This document shows, piece by piece, positions 1 through 14,683 of a stretch of DNA of 14,683 nt. The notes beneath the pieces are model-generated. The model saw only the letters and a program-made list of their open reading frames with translations. It was not told the origin of the DNA and did not search any database. The stretch is from Bacteroidota bacterium. Lineage in GTDB: Bacteria > Bacteroidota > Bacteroidia > Flavobacteriales > Flavobacteriaceae. Made by a program: the position numbers and the translations under genes. The stretch is taken from NCBI GenBank assembly GCA_947468985.1, contig CANINJ010000013.1, positions 1-14,683 on the forward strand, read 5' to 3'. Each line of letters begins with the position of its first letter. Position 1 is the stretch's first letter.

Positions 1-1
1 G

Positions 2-76
2 GTAAATGGACAAATGTACCCATTGAAAAATGGTGCCTATAATCCATTAGCATTGGTTTCTGTTAGCGGAATGTAA
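2..76 (+). CDS. 3' end of an unidentified upstream gene (partial)
   Basis: An open frame runs in from the left edge and stops at TAA 74-76. It gives 24 residues ending in ALVSVSGM, one base before the ATG of the next gene. The tight spacing suggests co-transcription with the DUF5675 gene. The fragment is too short to assign a family, and codon 1 may not be in the true frame. Confidence 0.45.
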   Translation, partial: VNGQMYPLKNGAYNPLALVSVSGM

Positions 77-679: not shown

Positions 680-979
680 ATGAATATAGTAGATCGCGCG
701 AAAGCGCCCACACCGAAATTTTTTAGGATTTTGCGAAGTATAGGATTGGTTTTGTTGGCCATAAGCGGAACGATTATTGCCGCTCCTGTTGCGTTGCCTG
801 TTGCACTTGTTAGTGCTGCGGGATATGTTGCGGTTGCAGGTGGAGTGATTTCGGCGGTTAGCCAATTGACGAGTCCCTTAAATGGTGGTGATGAGACCCT
901 GAAACAAGTTCAGGGGAAAGACCGAGTTCAGGGTGACAAACGAGTTCAGGGAAAAGACTCTGAAATAAATTCAGAGTAA
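680..979 (+). CDS. Small hydrophobic (holin-like) membrane protein with a repeat-derived tail
   Basis: This 99-residue protein has a basic start containing APTPKFF and one long hydrophobic region at about residues 19-62. That region is Gly/Ala/Val-rich and probably forms two membrane segments. The tail from about residue 68 is hydrophilic. APTPKFF followed by a glycine-rich double hydrophobic stretch recalls small Bacteroidota proteins found near DUF5675 genes (recall only). The tail is unusual: residues 77-94 are three six-residue units (VQGKDR, VQGDKR, VQGKDS) encoded by an 18-bp tandem repeat. The next small membrane gene starts one base after this stop, so the two are probably co-translated. 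Function is unknown; a lysis or holin role is a guess from size and topology. Confidence 0.65.
   Translation: MNIVDRAKAPTPKFFRILRSIGLVLLAISGTIIAAPVALPVALVSAAGYVAVAGGVISAVSQLTSPLNGGDETLKQVQGKDRVQGDKRVQGKDSEINSE
897..961 (+). repeat. Palindromic repeat grown into an 18-bp tandem array inside a coding tail
   Basis: Three 18-bp units start at 908, 926 and 944, each beginning GTTCAGGG. The first forms a dyad with CCCTGAA at 897-903 (arms 897-903 and 909-915, loop ACAAG). The period is a multiple of three, so the reading frame stays open. The CCCTGAA...TTCAGGG dyad resembles a dispersed intergenic palindrome I recall from Bacteroidota; that identity is inference. Confidence 0.7.
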
Positions 980-4252: not shown

Positions 4253-4852
4253 CTAACAATTTTCTATTATACTTCTTAAGTCATGTTTTTCAGTTATTTG
4301 AAAATGGTTGTATTCGTCAAATATTTTTCCAAATAGGTCGTTATAAATTTTATTTGCAAGTATAGATAATTTTGTCAAATCTTCTATTTTAATTATATGT
4401 TCTTTTGGATTTGGATCTGTATGTGCAAATACTTCATCTCTCAAATCAATTATCTTTTCAATTGTTGTTTTGTTATATTCAATTTCTATAAGTAATTCAT
4501 TTACAGAATTTATAATTTCTTGCCGGCTTTTATAAACATTATTTGTTTTTGCTTTATTTTCCAAAAGTAACTTATTAATGTAAACATCAAGAGGTTCACT
4601 TTTGTATTGTCGGCATAGTTTTATAATATTTCTTTTTTGATTTTTATTATCTGAAAATAACTTGGCTAATTGAGTAATTAAAATAAAATTCTGCTGATAC
4701 CATAAATTAAGATATACGTCATGATGATTTACCATGAATTTTTTCGAGTTTGAGTGTTGTAAAATGTGTAAATTACTCATAGCTATATTAATATCAAATA
4801 ACACTGGATTCAAATCATTAGCCCAACTTCTTAATTCTAATTCCTTTATCAT
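4253..4852 (-). CDS. HEPN-like (AbiU2-type) protein
   Basis: This 199-residue protein is largely helical, with no membrane segment. Residues 137-148 read LRDEVFAHTDPN, where R138 and H144 form an R-x5-H motif at the end of a predicted helix. The LRDxxFAHxD form is typical of HEPN proteins of the AbiU2 kind, which include RNases and RNA-binding toxins. The position of the motif, about two-thirds into a ~200-residue helical protein, fits. Activity as an RNase is family inference only. It stands alone between dyad-rich spacers, with no partner antitoxin visible. The stop codon lies in an inverted repeat (4220-4259). It could alternatively be a non-toxic HEPN protein. Confidence 0.6.
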   Translation of the reverse strand: MIKELELRSWANDLNPVLFDINIAMSNLHILQHSNSKKFMVNHHDVYLNLWYQQNFILITQLAKLFSDNKNQKRNIIKLCRQYKSEPLDVYINKLLLENKAKTNNVYKSRQEIINSVNELLIEIEYNKTTIEKIIDLRDEVFAHTDPNPKEHIIKIEDLTKLSILANKIYNDLFGKIFDEYNHFQITEKHDLRSIIENC

Positions 4853-6660: not shown

Positions 6661-7089
6661 TTTTTATTATTTATTTTATTATTTTTTCTATTTTTTTACT
6701 TAAATTGTCTTCCAATTAAAGACATATCACCCTTATATCGGTGGGCTTTGTCTCACAAAAGTCAATCTTTATAATTTATTATAGCGCAATTTACTCTTTA
6801 AGAAATCCATTGAATTACGGTTTTTTTGGGTTTTTTTTACGGTTTATTTATAGGAATATTTTATGACAATACCTTTTTATAAAACCAAACCTAACTATAT
6901 AGCTAGAATTGTTTAGGAGAAATTTCCAATTACTAATTCTATTTTATAGTATTGTTTTAATTGAATTTCCTGATTTATTCAATTAACGAACACTATAAAA
7001 GATTCGCGAGTCAATGAGGGGATTTGTAAAAGTTAATTTTAGAAGTAAACAACAAACTTCAATCATTCTGTTGCCATTAATTTATGGAG
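6661..7089. other. Gene-less region upstream of the 325-aa gene (429 bp)
   Basis: No gene is supported. Very AT-rich, this is the leader of the 5084-6660 operon (from 6661 up) and the downstream region of the barrel gene (to 7089). The only distinct signal is the double ACGG element at 6815-6845. No convincing TAnnTTTG element was found. Confidence 0.5.
6815..6845 (-). promoter_or_regulatory. Double ACCGTAA element, copy 1
   Basis: On the plus strand TTACGGT occurs at 6815-6821 and again at 6837-6843, exactly 22 bp apart, with GGG midway (6828-6830) and T-runs between. Two helical turns between identical half-sites fits a dimeric regulator binding one face of the DNA. It lies about 155 bp upstream of the 325-aa gene. 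The same arrangement occurs at 11020-11050. Confidence 0.5.
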
Positions 7090-10423: not shown

Positions 10424-10678
10424 TTAATATCCAGCTGCTATTAAAGCATCCAAACGCAAATCATTACAATTGCAAAACCAGCAAGACATACTAACGTCTC
10501 CGATCGTAACTGAACAATATATTGCATCATCTGCAACTTTTGTTTCAACTACCTTTTTAACTACTTCAGTTTTTACAGTTGTTGCAGTTTCTACCGGAAG
10601 TTTTTTGATTGGATCTCCAGGGTTTGCAAAACTTACAGTTCCTACTAACATAACTAAACCTAAGAATAGATTTTTCAT
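10424..10678 (-). CDS. Secreted four-cysteine peptide of a GLPGLI/barrel operon
   Basis: This 84-residue precursor has a signal peptide MKNLFLGLVMLVGTVSFA with an expected cut after A18. A Lys/Val/Thr/Glu linker spans residues 19-52. The C-terminal domain (53-84) has four cysteines, C55, C66, C69 and C71 (CWFCNC), and ends LIAAGY. Four cysteines in 17 residues could form two disulfides or bind a metal. I do not recognise a family. It is first in an operon with GLPGLI and an outer-membrane barrel, separated from them by a strong hairpin, as expected for a highly expressed small substrate. Bacteriocin, metallophore-like peptide or signalling peptide are all possible. Alternatively it is a small periplasmic protein with no link to the barrel. 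Confidence 0.75.
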   Translation of the reverse strand: MKNLFLGLVMLVGTVSFANPGDPIKKLPVETATTVKTEVVKKVVETKVADDAIYCSVTIGDVSMSCWFCNCNDLRLDALIAAGY

Positions 10679-10746
10679 TATAAATTGAAATTCCCAGTGC
10701 TTAATTGCTTATGGCTGCTGTTTATTGGAATTAAATTTTCCAGCCC

Positions 10747-10763
10747 GTGAACAAAAAGTTCAC
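10747..10763. promoter_or_regulatory. Perfect 6-5-6 dyad upstream of the peptide gene
   Basis: GTGAAC-AAAAA-GTTCAC lies 69 bp upstream of the peptide ATG. Its symmetry and 11-bp half-site spacing fit a dimeric repressor or activator site. It could instead form a small leader hairpin. Confidence 0.45.
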
Positions 10764-11019
10764 TATTTTAGAAAATTCATCTTATCTATAAAAATACTCG
10801 CGACTATTTTCAAAACACTATGAACTTCTACTCAATTTACTTTCATTCAACTTTCGAACGCTGAATTAAAGCAAGATTGTTTAACAAGAGATTTATTTAA
10901 ACTTATTTTAAGTAATAAGAAAAAAACAACATAATTCATTCAAATCATATTGATTGTAAATTTATTATCAATTACATTATTTATTTTATTGCAAATTACC
11001 TCTTAAGAATATCTGTATT

Positions 11020-11050
11020 TTACGGTGTTTTGGGCTTTTTTTTACGGTGT
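11020..11050 (-). promoter_or_regulatory. Double ACCGTAA element, copy 2
   Basis: TTACGGT occurs at 11020-11026 and 11042-11048, 22 bp apart, with GGG (11032-11034) between and T-runs around. Organisation and orientation are the same as at 6815-6845. It lies about 340 bp upstream of the peptide gene. Confidence 0.5.
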
Positions 11051-11114
11051 TTTATTTAATTTTTATATGCAGCTTTCGAAAAAATTTCTAATGAATTCAA
11101 GGACTTGACTGCGT

Positions 11115-11537
11115 TTACTTTCTGCAATAGCGGTATAAAATCACTTTTCGTAAATCGTTTATGAGGTTGATGTTTTGGTGAAATTGTTTTTCTTTTTGTT
11201 CCAAAAGTTTTAGTGCTGCAACATTTTTAAGATGCTCATTGTGTTCTGACATCATTAAACTGGCTTTTGGGTTGAACTCATTTTTGAAATCGGGAAGGCG
11301 CAAAAATGGGATTACAGAACCTACTAAAAATGGGTGCCAGAATTTTGTTTGCCATAAACTATAGGCAATGAAAAATAAGCTTTCTAAGTCTTCTTGGTTT
11401 TGCAAAATGATTACAAAACTGTTTGTGAAAGGCTCTTTTTGGGGCTTCCCGCTGTTCATCCCTTTGTTAAGTACAAACAAATGGGGTTTGGTGTAAACTG
11501 TTCCTAATCGGTGGGTTTTAATGATGAAATTTAGCAT
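11115..11537 (-). CDS. DUF6943-like mobile-element protein
   Basis: This 140-residue soluble protein begins MLNFIIKTHRLGTVYTKPH, then has LFVLNKGMNSGKPQKEPFTN and FWHPFLVGSVIPFLRLPDF. It ends in a basic helical segment. The combination NKGMNxGKPxxxP and HPFLxGSVIPFxR is, from memory, that of DUF6943, a family of unknown function found in Bacteroidota integrative and conjugative elements. Nothing in the sequence shows an enzymatic role. It stands alone, with the double ACGG element on one side and a long hairpin-rich non-coding region on the other. Its presence suggests that this part of the window belongs, or once belonged, to an integrative element. Confidence 0.65.
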   Translation of the reverse strand: MLNFIIKTHRLGTVYTKPHLFVLNKGMNSGKPQKEPFTNSFVIILQNQEDLESLFFIAYSLWQTKFWHPFLVGSVIPFLRLPDFKNEFNPKASLMMSEHNEHLKNVAALKLLEQKEKQFHQNINLINDLRKVILYRYCRK

Positions 11538-11678
11538 AACATTCGGCTTTAAAAATGGGTTAGATTTTCAATTTTCCGCAGGTTTTCTGATGAAATGCAA
11601 TAGTGCCTCGCAACTCTCAACCTATAAATTTTTTTAAAAGAAAAAAAAGAAAAAAAGAAAGCCATTCGTTCAAGTGTA

Positions 11679-11777
11679 AGGTTTCAAAAAAGCAGGTTTT
11701 TTTGAAAAAATACTACCCGAAAGGGTGGAGATTTTTTCAAAAACCCGTAGGGCTTGAACTTGCTTTTTTGTAAACCT
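11679..11777. repeat. 99-bp imperfect inverted repeat
   Basis: AGGTTT and CAAAAAAGCA (11679-11694) pair with TGCTTTTTTG and AAACCT (11761-11777). Inside them, GG-T-run-GAAAAAA (11695-11710) pairs with TTTTTTCAAAAACC (11732-11745). The apex is ACCC-GAAA-GGGT (11716-11727). An unpaired stretch, 11746-11760, lies on the right side. Confidence 0.7.
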
Positions 11778-11896
11778 GGAACTTACCTTTGCTCTCTTTT
11801 TTTTATTTTTTATTTTGAATATCCAAATCAAATGTTCTTGTTCAATCGGATTGAATACTGAAGTAATGATTGTTGAAATGGAAGATAGAGGTTCTT

Positions 11897-11985
11897 GGAA
11901 GTGTATCAATTTTTTGTAGATGGATGACTGAGTGTGATGAAAAAGAAAATGTGCTTTATCCATCTGAAAAATTGATACTCTTCCT
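11897..11985. repeat. Inverted repeat with 27-29-bp arms and 33-nt loop
   Basis: The left arm 11897-11925 starts GGAAGTGTATCAATTTTT and ends AGATGGAT. The right arm 11959-11985 is its near-perfect complement, starting ATCCATCT and ending CTCTTCC. They differ by one substitution and a small internal bulge. Confidence 0.75.
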
Positions 11986-11998
11986 TCTACTATTTGAT

Positions 11999-12083
11999 TT
12001 TTGAGGAGGCTGAAATTAATTATGAATTATAAAGTATGAATTATGAATTAGTGTGGTTATGGAACTAGGTAGCCTCTTCAAAA
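11999..12083. repeat. 13-bp inverted repeat enclosing an AT-rich loop
   Basis: TTTTGAGGAGGCT (11999-12011) and AGCCTCTTCAAAA (12071-12083) pair with one mismatch across 59 nt. The next comparable dyad, GGAAGTAATTG (12336-12346)/CAACTACTTCC (12407-12417), has a 60-nt loop of similar content. Confidence 0.6.
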
Positions 12084-12102
12084 AACAATGCAAACGCTTA
12101 CC
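12038..12102 (+). repeat. 65-bp module, copy A
   Basis: It starts GAATTATGAAT and ends in ACAATGCAA followed by CTTACC. It aligns along its length with 12355-12418, with equal spacing of shared blocks (GTTATG, CTT, CAATGCAA, CTT). Roughly two-thirds identical by eye. Confidence 0.55.
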
Positions 12103-12123
12103 GAGTGAAGTGGTAGCAGCTCA

Positions 12124-12315
12124 GAGCAAGGGTATCGATTTTTTATTTGCGTGTTGGGTTGTTTCTGATTGCTTTTATGAATAGCTGGTGCCTATAAACG
12201 TCGAATGTCGAAAGGCAGAAAGGATTGTACTAAGAAAAGATAAGGGCATCGGCTATTGTAAAAGCAATTACCACTGAGCGTGGTGGCAAATGAAAAATGA
12301 TACTCTTGCTGGCTC
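12124..12315. repeat. About 190-nt long imperfect hairpin
   Basis: The outer arms are 12124-12150 (GAGCAAGGGTATCG...ATTTGC) and 12286-12315 (GCAAATG...GATACTCTTGC). The inner arms are 12168-12192 (ATTGCTTTTATGAATAGC...TGCC) and 12245-12268 (GGCATCGGCTATT...AAAGCAAT). The two arm pairs are separated by a 17-nt internal segment on each side. The right one carries its own hairpin, ACCAC/GTGGT (about 12270-12284). Base changes between arms are mostly single mismatches, so the fold looks long-lived. Could be a structured RNA or a DNA cruciform. Confidence 0.65.
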
Positions 12316-12354
12316 TTTTGGTTTTGTGGGTGCCCGGAAGTAATTGTGAATTGA

Positions 12355-12418
12355 GAATTATGAATGTAGTTGTTATGAAAATGAAAAGGCACTTACAAAA
12401 GCAATGCAACTACTTCCC
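12355..12418 (+). repeat. 65-bp module, copy B
   Basis: Diverged second copy of 12038-12102, offset by 317 bp. It starts GAATTATGAAT and contains GCAATGCAA near its end. It lies within the loop and right arm of the GGAAGTAATTG dyad, as copy A does within its own dyad. Confidence 0.55.
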
Positions 12419-12433
12419 TATTTAAATACAAAG

Positions 12434-12544
12434 ATGCTAAAAACAGTTACCGTAAATGTTCGTAGAAGCAATTATGACCGTAACGTTTCTACTGAAATAC
12501 AGAACGTTGTTGAAGACAGTGGCGAAGGGTGGTGTTTTGAGTAG
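12434..12544 (+). CDS. Possible 36-aa small protein
   Basis: ATG 12434 to TAG 12542-12544 encodes a 36-residue peptide starting MLKTVTVNVRRSNYDRN and ending GEGWCFE. It has a sensible amino-acid mix and higher GC than the flanking AT-rich DNA. A plus-strand terminator lies 40 bp after the stop. I recognise no family and the frame could be chance. Confidence 0.25.
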   Translation: MLKTVTVNVRRSNYDRNVSTEIQNVVEDSGEGWCFE

Positions 12545-12585
12545 CCGGCCGGTGCGATGGAAGCTGCTCAAAAAGTTGCCCTAGA

Positions 12586-12621
12586 GCCACTGGCAAGCGC
12601 GTTGGGTGTGGCGGCTTTTTT
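12586..12621 (+). terminator. Intrinsic terminator
   Basis: GCCAC (12586-12590) pairs with GTGGC (12608-12612). GGC and a run of six T (12616-12621) follow. The 17-nt loop is long but GC-rich. It would end a plus-strand transcript crossing 12434-12544. Confidence 0.5.
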
Positions 12622-12700
12622 ACATAATGTTATTATGGTGCATGCGAGATTTTCTATAGTAGCAGGGTGTTTCTTAATGCACTATAATGCCACATTATGT
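12622..12700. repeat. Inverted repeat with 22-24-bp arms and 33-nt loop
   Basis: The left arm 12622-12643 (ACATAATGTTATTATGGTGC plus AT) pairs with 12677-12700 (ATGCACTATAATG...CATTATGT). There is a two-base indel and one mismatch. The loop, 33 nt, equals that of 11897-11985. Confidence 0.7.
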
Positions 12701-12730
12701 AACTAAGCTTGGGGGAAAAAATTACTGGCG

Positions 12731-12819
12731 CAAGTTGCGAAGCGTACGTGTTTTTTCTAAAAACTGTGCCAGTATTTTTTTTTGGAGCGTTGGGAAAGGA
12801 GGGGCAATTGGTATGTAAA
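12731..12819 (+). repeat. 89-bp direct repeat, copy 1 (downstream of Abi_2)
   Basis: It starts CAAGTTGCGAAGCGTACGTG and ends ATGTAAA, and matches 14036-14124 at 85 of 89 positions with no indels. It ends 56 bp past the stop codon of the Abi_2 gene. In this copy only, the sequence just before and inside it forms a hairpin: ACTGGCGCA (12724-12732) with TGTGCCAGT (12765-12773). Confidence 0.95.
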
Positions 12820-12875
12820 TCCTCTTTTTTGAAGTATATATTATTGCTTATCTGAATTAATATGATAATTTAAAA

Positions 12876-13778
12876 CTATTCTTTTATCCAAATTGGTTGT
12901 GTTCTCCAATTTTCTGGAAATCCCATTTTATGAATAGGAACGTTTGAAAATTCATCTATTAAATCATAAAACTTCCCTTTTATTGAACTATTTGGACTAA
13001 TAAACTCCAACGTGTAAATGACTAATGTAAATAATGAAAATAACTTAGCCCTTTGACTGTCCGACGGAGTATATGTTATTGGTGGATTTTTTAAGTTTTT
13101 TGGCCACAAATATTTTATTGTAATATTATTGTTCCACAACCTAGAGTGGTGAGCTATAACATTTCTTATTACAGTGGTTGCTTCTAAGAAACTAGAGAAA
13201 TCACTGTGAGAATTAAAGCCAAACTCTTGTGCTATTCTTGATTTTTCAGGTAATTGATGGTTTAAATTTTTATATAATTTAGACAACGACCCCATAGAAG
13301 CTACTTCAAGTGCTTTCCAAGCTTCTGGTAGTTCGTTTTTATGTTTTTTATTGTGCTCCTCAATAAATTGCTCCTTACTTCGCTTAATTTCATTACTTAA
13401 ATGACCTGCTATTGACATTTGATTTATTCCATCTGTAAAAATTGAATAATCTAAATACCATAAAGGACCATAAGCTAATGATAAATTATATATTAGTTTT
13501 GTTCTTAGTGCAACCTCAATTCTTTCTATTGCATCAAAAATTAGAAGTCTTAAATGTCTGTCGAAATTATATAAATCAATCACATCTTCGAAATAACTTT
13601 CCTCTTTGAATTTATGGTCAACTTTATCCGTTTGCATTTCCCACCAATATCCTTTTAATCGATAATAACTAATGTTATGAAGAAAATGAGGTACTGCTTC
13701 TTCATTACGAAACAACATCCCTCTTTCTTTTAGAAGTTCAATTTGTTGTGTTACTGTTTTAGGATCTTTACTTGCCAT
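12876..13778 (-). CDS. Abi_2 / AbiF-type abortive infection protein (HEPN)
   Basis: This 300-residue protein matches the Abi_2 (AbiD/AbiF) family. Seen: an N-terminal TVTQQIELLKERG helix, ISYYRLKGYWWEM (residues 36-48), LYNFDRHLRLLIFDAIERIE (69-88), and the catalytic-type HEPN motif RNVIAHHSRLW (R205-x4-H210). Length is typical. Family members confer abortive infection against phages; an RNase role follows from the intact HEPN motif. It has its own strong promoter (13842-13873) and a leader containing a hairpin followed by nine U just before the ATG. An 89-bp sequence follows it that also follows the neighbouring AbiEii gene. The 1,305-bp unit 12731-14035 thus looks like an inserted cassette. 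No separate antitoxin gene is visible. Confidence 0.92.
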   Translation of the reverse strand: MASKDPKTVTQQIELLKERGMLFRNEEAVPHFLHNISYYRLKGYWWEMQTDKVDHKFKEESYFEDVIDLYNFDRHLRLLIFDAIERIEVALRTKLIYNLSLAYGPLWYLDYSIFTDGINQMSIAGHLSNEIKRSKEQFIEEHNKKHKNELPEAWKALEVASMGSLSKLYKNLNHQLPEKSRIAQEFGFNSHSDFSSFLEATTVIRNVIAHHSRLWNNNITIKYLWPKNLKNPPITYTPSDSQRAKLFSLFTLVIYTLEFISPNSSIKGKFYDLIDEFSNVPIHKMGFPENWRTQPIWIKE

Positions 13779-13786
13779 ATAGATAT

Positions 13787-13835
13787 AAAAAAAAAGACCA
13801 GAAGGCTGTTCTTACGGGAAGCGCTACTGGTACGA
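13787..13835 (-). ncRNA. Short structured leader or small RNA ahead of Abi_2
   Basis: Between the predicted start of transcription (about 13835) and the ATG (13778) the minus strand reads ACCAG (13831-13827), an inner region, then CTGGT (13801-13797), C, A-free spacing of one base and T9 (13795-13787). The closing stem plus U9 resembles an intrinsic terminator. It would yield a stable RNA of about 48 nt, ending 8 bases before the Abi_2 start codon. An alternative pairing AGAA/TTCT competes for the same bases. It may be an attenuator or a small RNA that restrains the toxin. Confidence 0.5.
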
Positions 13836-13841
13836 TTAATG

Positions 13842-13873
13842 CAAATATACACACAACATTATAATTGACCAAA
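13842..13873 (-). promoter_or_regulatory. Bacteroidota-type promoter of Abi_2
   Basis: Minus-strand TTTG (13873-13870), 20 nt, TATATTTG (13849-13842). This matches the Bacteroidota consensus TTTG-N19-TAnnTTTG nearly exactly. It predicts a start near 13835. Confidence 0.8.
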
Positions 13874-13880
13874 CTTTTTA

Positions 13881-13898
13881 ACAATTAATCGTAATTGT
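13881..13898. promoter_or_regulatory. Operator-like dyad upstream of the Abi_2 promoter
   Basis: ACAATTA-ATCG-TAATTGT, a perfect 7-bp dyad, begins 8 bp upstream of the -33 box. The position fits an activator or repressor site. The remaining DNA to 14035 is AT-rich with no gene. Confidence 0.4.
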
Positions 13899-14035
13899 CA
13901 ATAGAAAAGTCTTTATTAATAGGGATTTACATTACTAAATAATTAATTTTAAATACAAATTTAATCATTTTTTTGAACTCAACAGATTAAGTTGATATTG
14001 TTTTGAAAGATCAAAATAAATTAATATCACTTAAA

Positions 14036-14124
14036 CAAGTTGCGAAGCGTACGTGTTTTTTCTAAAAACTGTGCCAGTAATTTTTTTTGGAGCGTTGGGA
14101 AAGGAGTGGGAATTGGAATGTAAA
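14036..14124 (+). repeat. 89-bp direct repeat, copy 2 (downstream of AbiEii)
   Basis: Same 89 bp as 12731-12819 with 4 substitutions. It ends 55 bp past the AbiEii stop. Its left neighbour lacks the ACTGGCG arm present beside copy 1, so the identity starts abruptly at CAAG. Confidence 0.95.
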
Positions 14125-14179
14125 GTGTTATTTACTATTAAATAATTAAAGACATTTTAATGAAAATAGATTTTAATAT

Positions 14180-14683
14180 CTATTTATGGTTAATTGGATA
14201 TAGAATGTTTTTTAATTTATCAAACGCTTCCTTGTGTTTATGAACAGGCATTTTTTCAAGATTTATCATTTTCCAAAGTACAGAAGGGAGATTAGCAATA
14301 ACAGTACTATTTTCCATTTCTAATAAATTCCAATCGGGAGTTTTGCTTTTGAAAGATAAAAGAAATTTCTTTTCATTGTCTGTCATTTGTGAATTGATTT
14401 GGTTAATTAAATTTTCTCTAGCTTCTACCAATTGTGCCAAAGGAACATCTACTTCTGCCATTTGTTTGAATTCGGTTTCGTAAATTTCGCTAATATCTTT
14501 TCTATTTGGAGCCAATAGTTCTGAGATTGGTCTTTGATGACTAATTAGAAATATTAAGAATGTTTTCCGTAAATTATCTGTTAAACCTTCCTTTTCGAGA
14601 AGAAATTTCACATCAAATAAATCTCTTGGATGTTGTCTGTCAAGAGCTGCACAGATTTTTCCTGCATATAAATCTGGTAGTGA
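14180..14683 (-). CDS. abiEii: AbiEii/AbiGii-type nucleotidyltransferase toxin, C-terminal part
   Basis: The frame is open to the right edge, so the gene starts outside the window; 167 residues are visible. The first ones read SLPDLYAGKICAALDRQH, then PRDLFDVKFLLEKEG. This is the conserved LYxGKxxAALxRxxPRDLFD block of AbiEii-type nucleotidyltransferases, including the family's conserved lysine and Asp/Arg residues. A GTG at 14609-14611 is internal (the V of FDVKF), not the start. The rest is the helical C-terminal region. AbiE systems are toxin-antitoxin pairs in which the toxin transfers nucleotides to RNA targets. The AbiEi antitoxin gene is expected just upstream, beyond the window. The stop is followed 55 bp later by the 89-bp repeat. 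Confidence 0.88.
   Translation of the reverse strand, partial: SLPDLYAGKICAALDRQHPRDLFDVKFLLEKEGLTDNLRKTFLIFLISHQRPISELLAPNRKDISEIYETEFKQMAEVDVPLAQLVEARENLINQINSQMTDNEKKFLLSFKSKTPDWNLLEMENSTVIANLPSVLWKMINLEKMPVHKHKEAFDKLKNILYPINHK

Follow-up and report, generated by a model that had tools for sequence, protein, structure and literature searches.

The 89-bp repeat found in the window, by which we mean the whole stretch of 14,683 nucleotides analysed here, is, judged from its alignment with related loci, the terminal part of a conserved non-coding block rich in hairpins (NC) on mobile Flavobacterium islands. Positions 11115-12829 comprise a DUF6943 gene and ~1.3 kb without a conserved gene, which together form one conserved block in many loci. 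In many relatives the block runs beyond the window's repeat into a further module whose right end is sharp. We label the portion containing the terminal hairpin A and the last ~83 bp B. We consider it reasonably probable that A is the 3′ module of a DUF6943-paired NC on integrase-bearing islands, that the right flank of the block serves as a cargo dock for anti-phage operons, and that the arrangement has relatives elsewhere in the order. The repeat and the genes beside it are:

12731-12819, forward strand: repeat copy 1, the end of NC (direct-repeat listing and alignment)
12874-13901, reverse strand: Abi_2 unit, the gene plus about 123 bp upstream (76-82% identical in seven other genomes of the genus, with edges near these positions)
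12876-13778, reverse strand: Abi_2 ORF (PF07751, 2e-54; PADLOC AbiD, 8.6e-73)
14036-14124, forward strand: repeat copy 2, shortened, with the left arm of the hairpin lost (direct repeat and fold comparison)
14180-14683, reverse strand: AbiEii ORF, truncated at its 5′ end by the window border (98.8% identity to locus L031 over 14036-14683)

The first-pass annotation had reported that one 89-bp sequence follows two unrelated abortive-infection genes at the same distance. The measurements behind this were confirmed by alignment: the two copies were identical at 85 of 89 positions with no indels (differing at repeat positions 45, 72, 75, and 82), and they end 56 and 55 bp from the stop codons of the Abi_2 and AbiEii ORFs, respectively. 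The spacers between stop and repeat were unlike each other, as claimed, matching at 21 of 55 positions. The repeat was the longest direct repeat listed in the window, far above chance, and two copies were found in the window's own genome (66% complete) at E ≤ 0.001. The 143-aa AbiEii piece had no Pfam match, and its name rests on the 98.8% identical, longer relative in L031. Folding also bore out the hairpin whose left arm was said to be missing at copy 2. In copy 1, the hairpin at 12714-12785 reached -22.7 kcal/mol (z -3.5), with an A-run before it and a T-run after it, and copy 2, in which the left arm is absent, folded at -10.4 kcal/mol (z -0.5), no better than shuffles.

The repeat was not confined to this locus. 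A 24-base pattern from A was found in 26 stretches of 21 genomes in a species-level genome collection, and the titles of these stretches named Flavobacterium (15), Flavobacteriaceae (6), Flavobacteriales (1), and Bacteroidetes (4). With a longer query, the 21 genomes contained from 1 to 12 element copies each. Within the window's genus, 116 of 398 genomes, its own among them, were hit by a query combining A and B; no more than two candidate places per genome were scored in searches of the genus. At the family level, the A query matched four of 397 evenly drawn genomes including the own one; the matches in the remaining three covered just 32 to 38 bases. Neither the repeat nor the A pattern was found in the plasmid and viral collections. 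Because the loci compared below were gathered by repeat searches, the presence of the repeat in them is given by construction, which does not apply to gene order and orientation. Two or more A-type copies occurred in 8 of 40 loci, the window among them, and two or more separate A/B pieces in 19 of 40 (three loci with one copy split by an insertion were not counted). Some A/B copies had no nearby NC (L067, L094, and L095 with L096).

NC is paired with the DUF6943 gene and contains the following features:

11115-11537, reverse strand: DUF6943 gene, partner of NC (PF22105, 1.1e-55; adjoins the block in relatives)
11560-12829, forward strand: NC, hairpin-rich non-coding block ending in A (about 67-92% identical in aligned stretches of relatives)
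11640-11790, forward strand: P1, the most widely conserved NC hairpin (alignment of 24; NC match in 24/25 DUF6943 loci of the order)
11760-11791, forward strand: promoter-like TTG-N20-TACCTTTG reading into NC (similar place in 13/26 sequences)
12517-12592, forward strand: P5 hairpin with strong covariation (helices 1 and 2, 11/27 pairs changed on both sides)
12613-12709, forward strand: P6 hairpin (helices 5 to 7)
12714-12785, no strand assigned: A hairpin of copy 1, consisting of A-run, stem, and T-run (helix 8, 8/16 pairs changed on both sides)

The consensus fold, the covariation, and the promoter-like motif suggest that NC is a candidate structured RNA of roughly 1 kb, probably transcribed and ending at A; it may instead act as a folded DNA strand. 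We read the TTG-N20-TACCTTTG sequence near the end of P1 as a promoter-like motif of Bacteroidota form. For the 25 aligned blocks, the consensus fold reached -180.6 kcal/mol on the forward and -110.7 kcal/mol on the reverse strand, compared with -1.1 kcal/mol after column shuffling (10 shuffles), a contrast that is overstated since such shuffling also destroys neighbour composition. Two further alignments contained 20 of the 25 blocks (without L081, L085, L097, L099, and L101) and 24 of them (without L101). Compensatory stem changes were assessed in the 3′ quarter of NC, where 25 of 80 pairs were changed on both sides (20 of the 25 sequences) and paired cells in the alignment amounted to 97.8%. 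The shuffled mean was 12.6 and none of 500 shuffles reached 25, although these shuffles leave the relatedness of the sequences in place; slid partners gave 5 to 9. The count of further pair types was unremarkable (51 vs. 47.7 shuffled, with 54 of 500 as high), and helices 3 and 4 contained no pairs changed on both sides. In L062, L066, and L074, the letters of the A hairpin were unrelated and a similar fold was kept. With its two runs, the A hairpin could terminate transcription from both sides. B, represented by the copy in L016, formed a weak hairpin (-9.3 kcal/mol, z -1.8) with a short T-run. A search of window positions 10500-14683 against Rfam gave nothing above the curated cut-off (best E 0.79). 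An extra long hairpin was observed inside the loop of the A hairpin in L084, L085, L099, and L101 (L009 and L023 are two of these places).

Across the order, 29 of 346 genomes and 17 of 104 genera contained DUF6943, one of these genomes with a match below the cut-off. The order search gave 38 matches, and 25 of them were retrieved as loci. In 24 of these 25, the window included, an NC match lay upstream of DUF6943, often limited to 25-40 bases in the first hairpin. Four loci from other genera had a B that was 83-87% identical, with a DUF6943 protein 35-37% identical to that of the window. Eight order-level loci had long flanks, and the genes past the block were again mostly convergent. The core of c2, DUF5675, and small membrane protein was found in three of the eight, all belonging to one other family. 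In the remaining five (L190-L194), a 213-aa ORF adjoined DUF6943 and c2 was absent; four of them carried B. The structure model of DUF6943 had a mean pLDDT of 67.8 and a long helix. In Flavobacterium psychrophilum, DUF6943 formed one protein cluster (P0240) on 219 contigs.

The genes on the left side of the block were mostly conserved, and those on the right side were variable and rich in anti-phage families. In most relatives, the left genes comprised c2 ('MARQKG'), DUF5675, and one or two genes for small membrane proteins; some had, further left, an integrase or an SNase-like gene. The corresponding features of the window are:

1-76, forward strand: 3′ end of a conserved 252-aa 'MARQKG' gene (c2b), left end of the island (overlap with contig C66)
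78-479, forward strand: DUF5675 gene, island core (PF18925, 2.1e-28; same place in relatives)
680-979, forward strand: small membrane protein, island core (in one cluster with 12 ORFs from relatives)

Contig C66 of the same genome shares 112 identical end bases with the start of the window and carries a tRNA 3′ fragment followed by the rest of c2b, and the island of the window was therefore assigned to the tRNA-fragment type. The genome is incomplete; the best candidate for the island integrase in it had 29% identity, so that no close one was detected, and the right end of the island was not found. A 19-base tRNA 3′ fragment stood exactly at the left end in 9 of 15 c2b-type stretches (L014 and L027 repeat two of these), and near variants were present in L066 and L088. 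SNase-type relatives did not contain the fragment. The whole tRNA was located beyond the cargo on the same contig and strand in genomes G414, G398, G397, and G403, and on other contigs in G404 and G412. Between tRNA-Ser(UGA) and the fragments, the former four genomes contained seven islands of 24 to 62 kb, and three of the four had two islands in tandem. In all seven islands, an integrase with Pfam domains of the tyrosine integrase family adjoined the tRNA-side border, and the other border was formed by c2-DUF5675-small membrane protein-DUF6943-NC-A/B. All seven thus possess the border tRNA 3′ repeats and the tyrosine integrase of a tRNA-integrated island. For the window's island, the left border alone was identified, through contig C66. 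A left att site resembling the end of B was not found at up to four mismatches.

Six islands were compared in gene content. All six shared a replication-initiator-like protein (named by eye, no Pfam match), five a protein with a weak AAA match, five an HTH_17 protein, and three RteC. Against PHROGs, the core genes matched models of unknown function, an endonuclease model, a weak lipoprotein model, or none. The small membrane protein at 680-979 had no PHROG match, and holin-like is our own label for it, given by eye without a family match. c2 had no Pfam match, and its structure model (mean pLDDT 46.4) was too poor for use. The islands of G403 and G398 (L139 and L143) carried RND efflux genes and a beta-lactamase-family domain protein as cargo unrelated to defence.

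The cargo on the right side was mostly oriented toward the block. The first ORF (≥80 aa) was convergent at 55 of 63 A/B right ends in 40 loci, the window included, right ends with a query end <130 being excluded. Because some right ends shared their first gene, the distinct first genes numbered 46, and 40 of these were convergent (p = 3.1e-7 against even odds). Convergence was general to the cargo beyond the first gene (148 of 176 cargo ORFs). The right end reached the fixed end of B in 36 of the 63 cases and stopped earlier in 27. The distance from the first convergent stop to the A/B end varied from about 0 to 370 bp across the 40 loci, so a fixed spacing was not supported, and the nearly equal 55 and 56 bp in the window are regarded as a coincidence. 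The proposal of a defence-gene array, in which each unit carries its own promoter and a common 3′ tail, was upheld in part, and the array itself largely so: unrelated defence-rich operons recur beside the element in many genomes, and the recurrence of the Abi_2 gene with about 123 bp upstream in seven other genomes of the genus indicates that units carry their own upstream region. A single universal tail was not supported, and one tail per unit only in part: the tails are A copies of varying extent or B, which many units carry, and copy 2 lacks the hairpin.

One hundred cargo proteins matched 363 PADLOC families, compared with 21 matched by 100 controls, these tallies counting redundant families rather than proteins. 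The cargo proteins were hand-picked from 146 cluster representatives, those dropped being mostly short or far from the dock, and the controls were the first 100 of 165 shuffled ORFs (<1300 aa) from 12 arbitrary stretches in five of the same genomes. At 1e-8, 10 of 20 first genes matched and the other 10 did not. The matched ones included AbiD (the window's Abi_2), AbiEii, an OLD/Gabija-like ATPase, and a DRT2-type reverse transcriptase; one of the ten was the window's own Abi_2, and another (L073:9468-10268) matched only helix-turn-helix and control proteins. The cargo is accordingly called anti-phage by PADLOC family name only. A two-gene unit, consisting of a 161-aa protein (PADLOC PDC-M04B) and a 236-aa protein that appeared DUF3800-like by eye, recurred directly after the B end in L062, L065, L074, L075, L078, L085, and L089. 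Inner cargo of the window at 4253-4852 and 1375-2211 comprised a HEPN AbiU2 match (weak, below cut-off) and a BRO-N protein. A second, diverged repeat was also observed in the window (6771-6848 vs. 10976-11053, 73% identical over 78 bp), with related copies in L021. Its copies lie 3′ of the operon 10678-7090 and just past the DUF6943 stop, respectively, and it may represent a further dock, opposite the first with respect to DUF6943.

The Abi_2 unit, whose edges lie near the stop codon and ~123 bp upstream of the gene, was found in 7 other genomes of the 398. In five of the seven relatives (L151-L155), an NC-type match was present within about 1.3 kb beyond the Abi_2 stop, mostly through its first hairpin, its 3′ part being different; L156 and L157 contained the unit without an NC match nearby. 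As five of the seven adjoin an NC-type block, the unit has, by its position in these loci, docked at equivalent places beside NC anchors of different variants. The 5′ region of Abi_2 contains a short element (13785-13840) that recurred in L151-L157 and, elsewhere, in L020, L071, L159, and L160. In comparison with genome G408, DUF6943-NC of the window was 88.5% identical and copy 2 with AbiEii was 98.8% identical, and the step in identity falls at the first base of copy 2, where the aligned stretch begins. The relative of copy 2 in G408 and L031 keeps the left arm of the hairpin, and in G408 other cargo precedes it.

The conserved core, the convergent, variable and defence-rich cargo, the covariation, the tRNA-Ser(UGA) borders of seven islands, and the repetition of A/B between units are evident in the loci compared, and we infer that the units probably moved by homologous and illegitimate recombination. 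Anti-phage operons would be acquired at the right flank of NC, mostly in the orientation convergent to the block. Incoming DNA would enter by homologous recombination through NC/A (or B) at one end and be joined through short or no homology at the other, and each acquisition could leave a shortened copy of the module between units. In the window, Abi_2 may have entered between NC-A and an older AbiEii unit, which would make copy 2 a hairpin-less remnant. Such exchange is suggested because the A copies show many right (133-245) and left edges and because copy 2, on the side facing Abi_2, is cut within the older hairpin.

A simpler explanation is that one homologous insertion of a single gene duplicated the flank at this locus, with nothing systematic behind it. 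Just two copies were found in the own genome, the relative of copy 2 in G408 retains its left arm, and the reading fits the right end of the Abi_2 unit here. It leaves the genus-wide pattern unexplained, since 19 of 40 loci contain two or more separate A/B pieces and the layout is repeated across many genomes; occurrence in multiple genomes largely refutes it, and we give it little credence. Slightly less credible still is the view that the modules are shared convergent terminators kept at operon ends by selection on expression. A is indeed a hairpin between an A-run and a T-run whose letters are replaceable with a similar fold, but conservation spans about 1.3 kb plus DUF6943, and B, whose hairpin is weak and T-run short, remains 83-87% identical where DUF6943 is only 35-37% identical. 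The common right end and variable left end of many copies would also be expected of reverse-transcribed RNA inserted at new sites, giving 3′-anchored, 5′-shortened copies. However, no reverse transcriptase was named among the core genes scanned, the one found was cargo of a single locus (L079), and many left edges cluster at the border of B, which makes this the least probable of the explanations.

Integron cassette arrays consist of gene units with a structured 3′ module, mostly in the same orientation, and integron attC sites contain RYYYAAC/GTTRRRY boxes. The present loci share with integrons the structured module on the 3′ side and the mostly uniform orientation. A and B might therefore be recombination sites of an integron-like site-specific cassette system, in which a gene plus one site moves as a circle through a recombinase. 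Fifteen of 20 B-only pieces start within 20 bp (query positions 187-206) and share one end point. Of the 63 right ends, 36 lie at the fixed B end with unrelated sequence after it, units mostly share one orientation, and the 161/236-aa unit is preceded by a complete AB in one species and by a B-only piece in a second. However, A copies start at many positions and also end at many (133-245), which differs from the fixed recombination point of integrons, and the hairpin was lost from copy 2. Furthermore, no attC-type boxes were detected in the two window copies, the AB of L016, or the B of L085, and the island integrase is at the opposite end, beside a tRNA fragment unlike B. We regard this system as unlikely. 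The clustered starts of the 15 B-only pieces, together with the cross-genus conservation of B, are more in keeping with B being a specific site than with sloppy recombination. It is conceivable, although we think it doubtful, that the Flavobacteriales possess a gene-capture platform unlike integrons, in which the dock is defined by the DUF6943 protein together with its ~1-kb structured RNA (or folded strand of DNA), with B providing specific sites for the gain, shuffling, and loss of defence cassettes. The reading preferred here is still that of a DUF6943-NC island with a cargo dock, whose units moved by homologous and illegitimate recombination.

OLE, GOLLD, and ROOL are large structured bacterial RNAs, and OLE has a partner protein. 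NC resembles them as a long, conserved, multi-hairpin non-coding candidate RNA, with a candidate partner protein where OLE has one. It differs in being tied to defence cargo, and it is a candidate RNA by sequence, with a best Rfam E of 0.79.

Among described systems, the DUF6943-NC islands come nearest to the defence hotspot of P4-like satellites. Excerpts of the work on these describe an anti-phage hotspot between psu and int, beside cos (PMC9122126). As far as that partial account goes, both are integrase-bearing elements with one cargo place and many unrelated defence systems, and the place of cos beside the cargo is taken here by NC as the conserved non-coding neighbour (PMC9122126). The other genes, the host group, and the att site differ, and the satellite nature belongs to the P4-like elements, whereas the islands here are read from sequence. 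In the excerpts, P4-like cargo occurs in either orientation, whereas here it has mostly one direction; several units arrayed with repeated modules, the structured block, and DUF6943 distinguish the present islands from the P4-like elements as described there. In Flavobacterium psychrophilum, partial texts report independent small transcripts with a median of 176 bp (PMC9723704) and clusters flanked by tRNA or transposons, together with restriction systems (PMC5808330). No paper naming DUF6943 was found among the papers searched, and no description of this layout was found in the titles and abstract beginnings among the best matches listed.

DUF6943, NC, A, and B would offer a handle for finding anti-phage operons in Flavobacteriales, including the unmatched ones at the same dock. 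They also raise the question of whether a structured RNA beside a defence dock may aid the exchange of cargo or the life cycle of the island.
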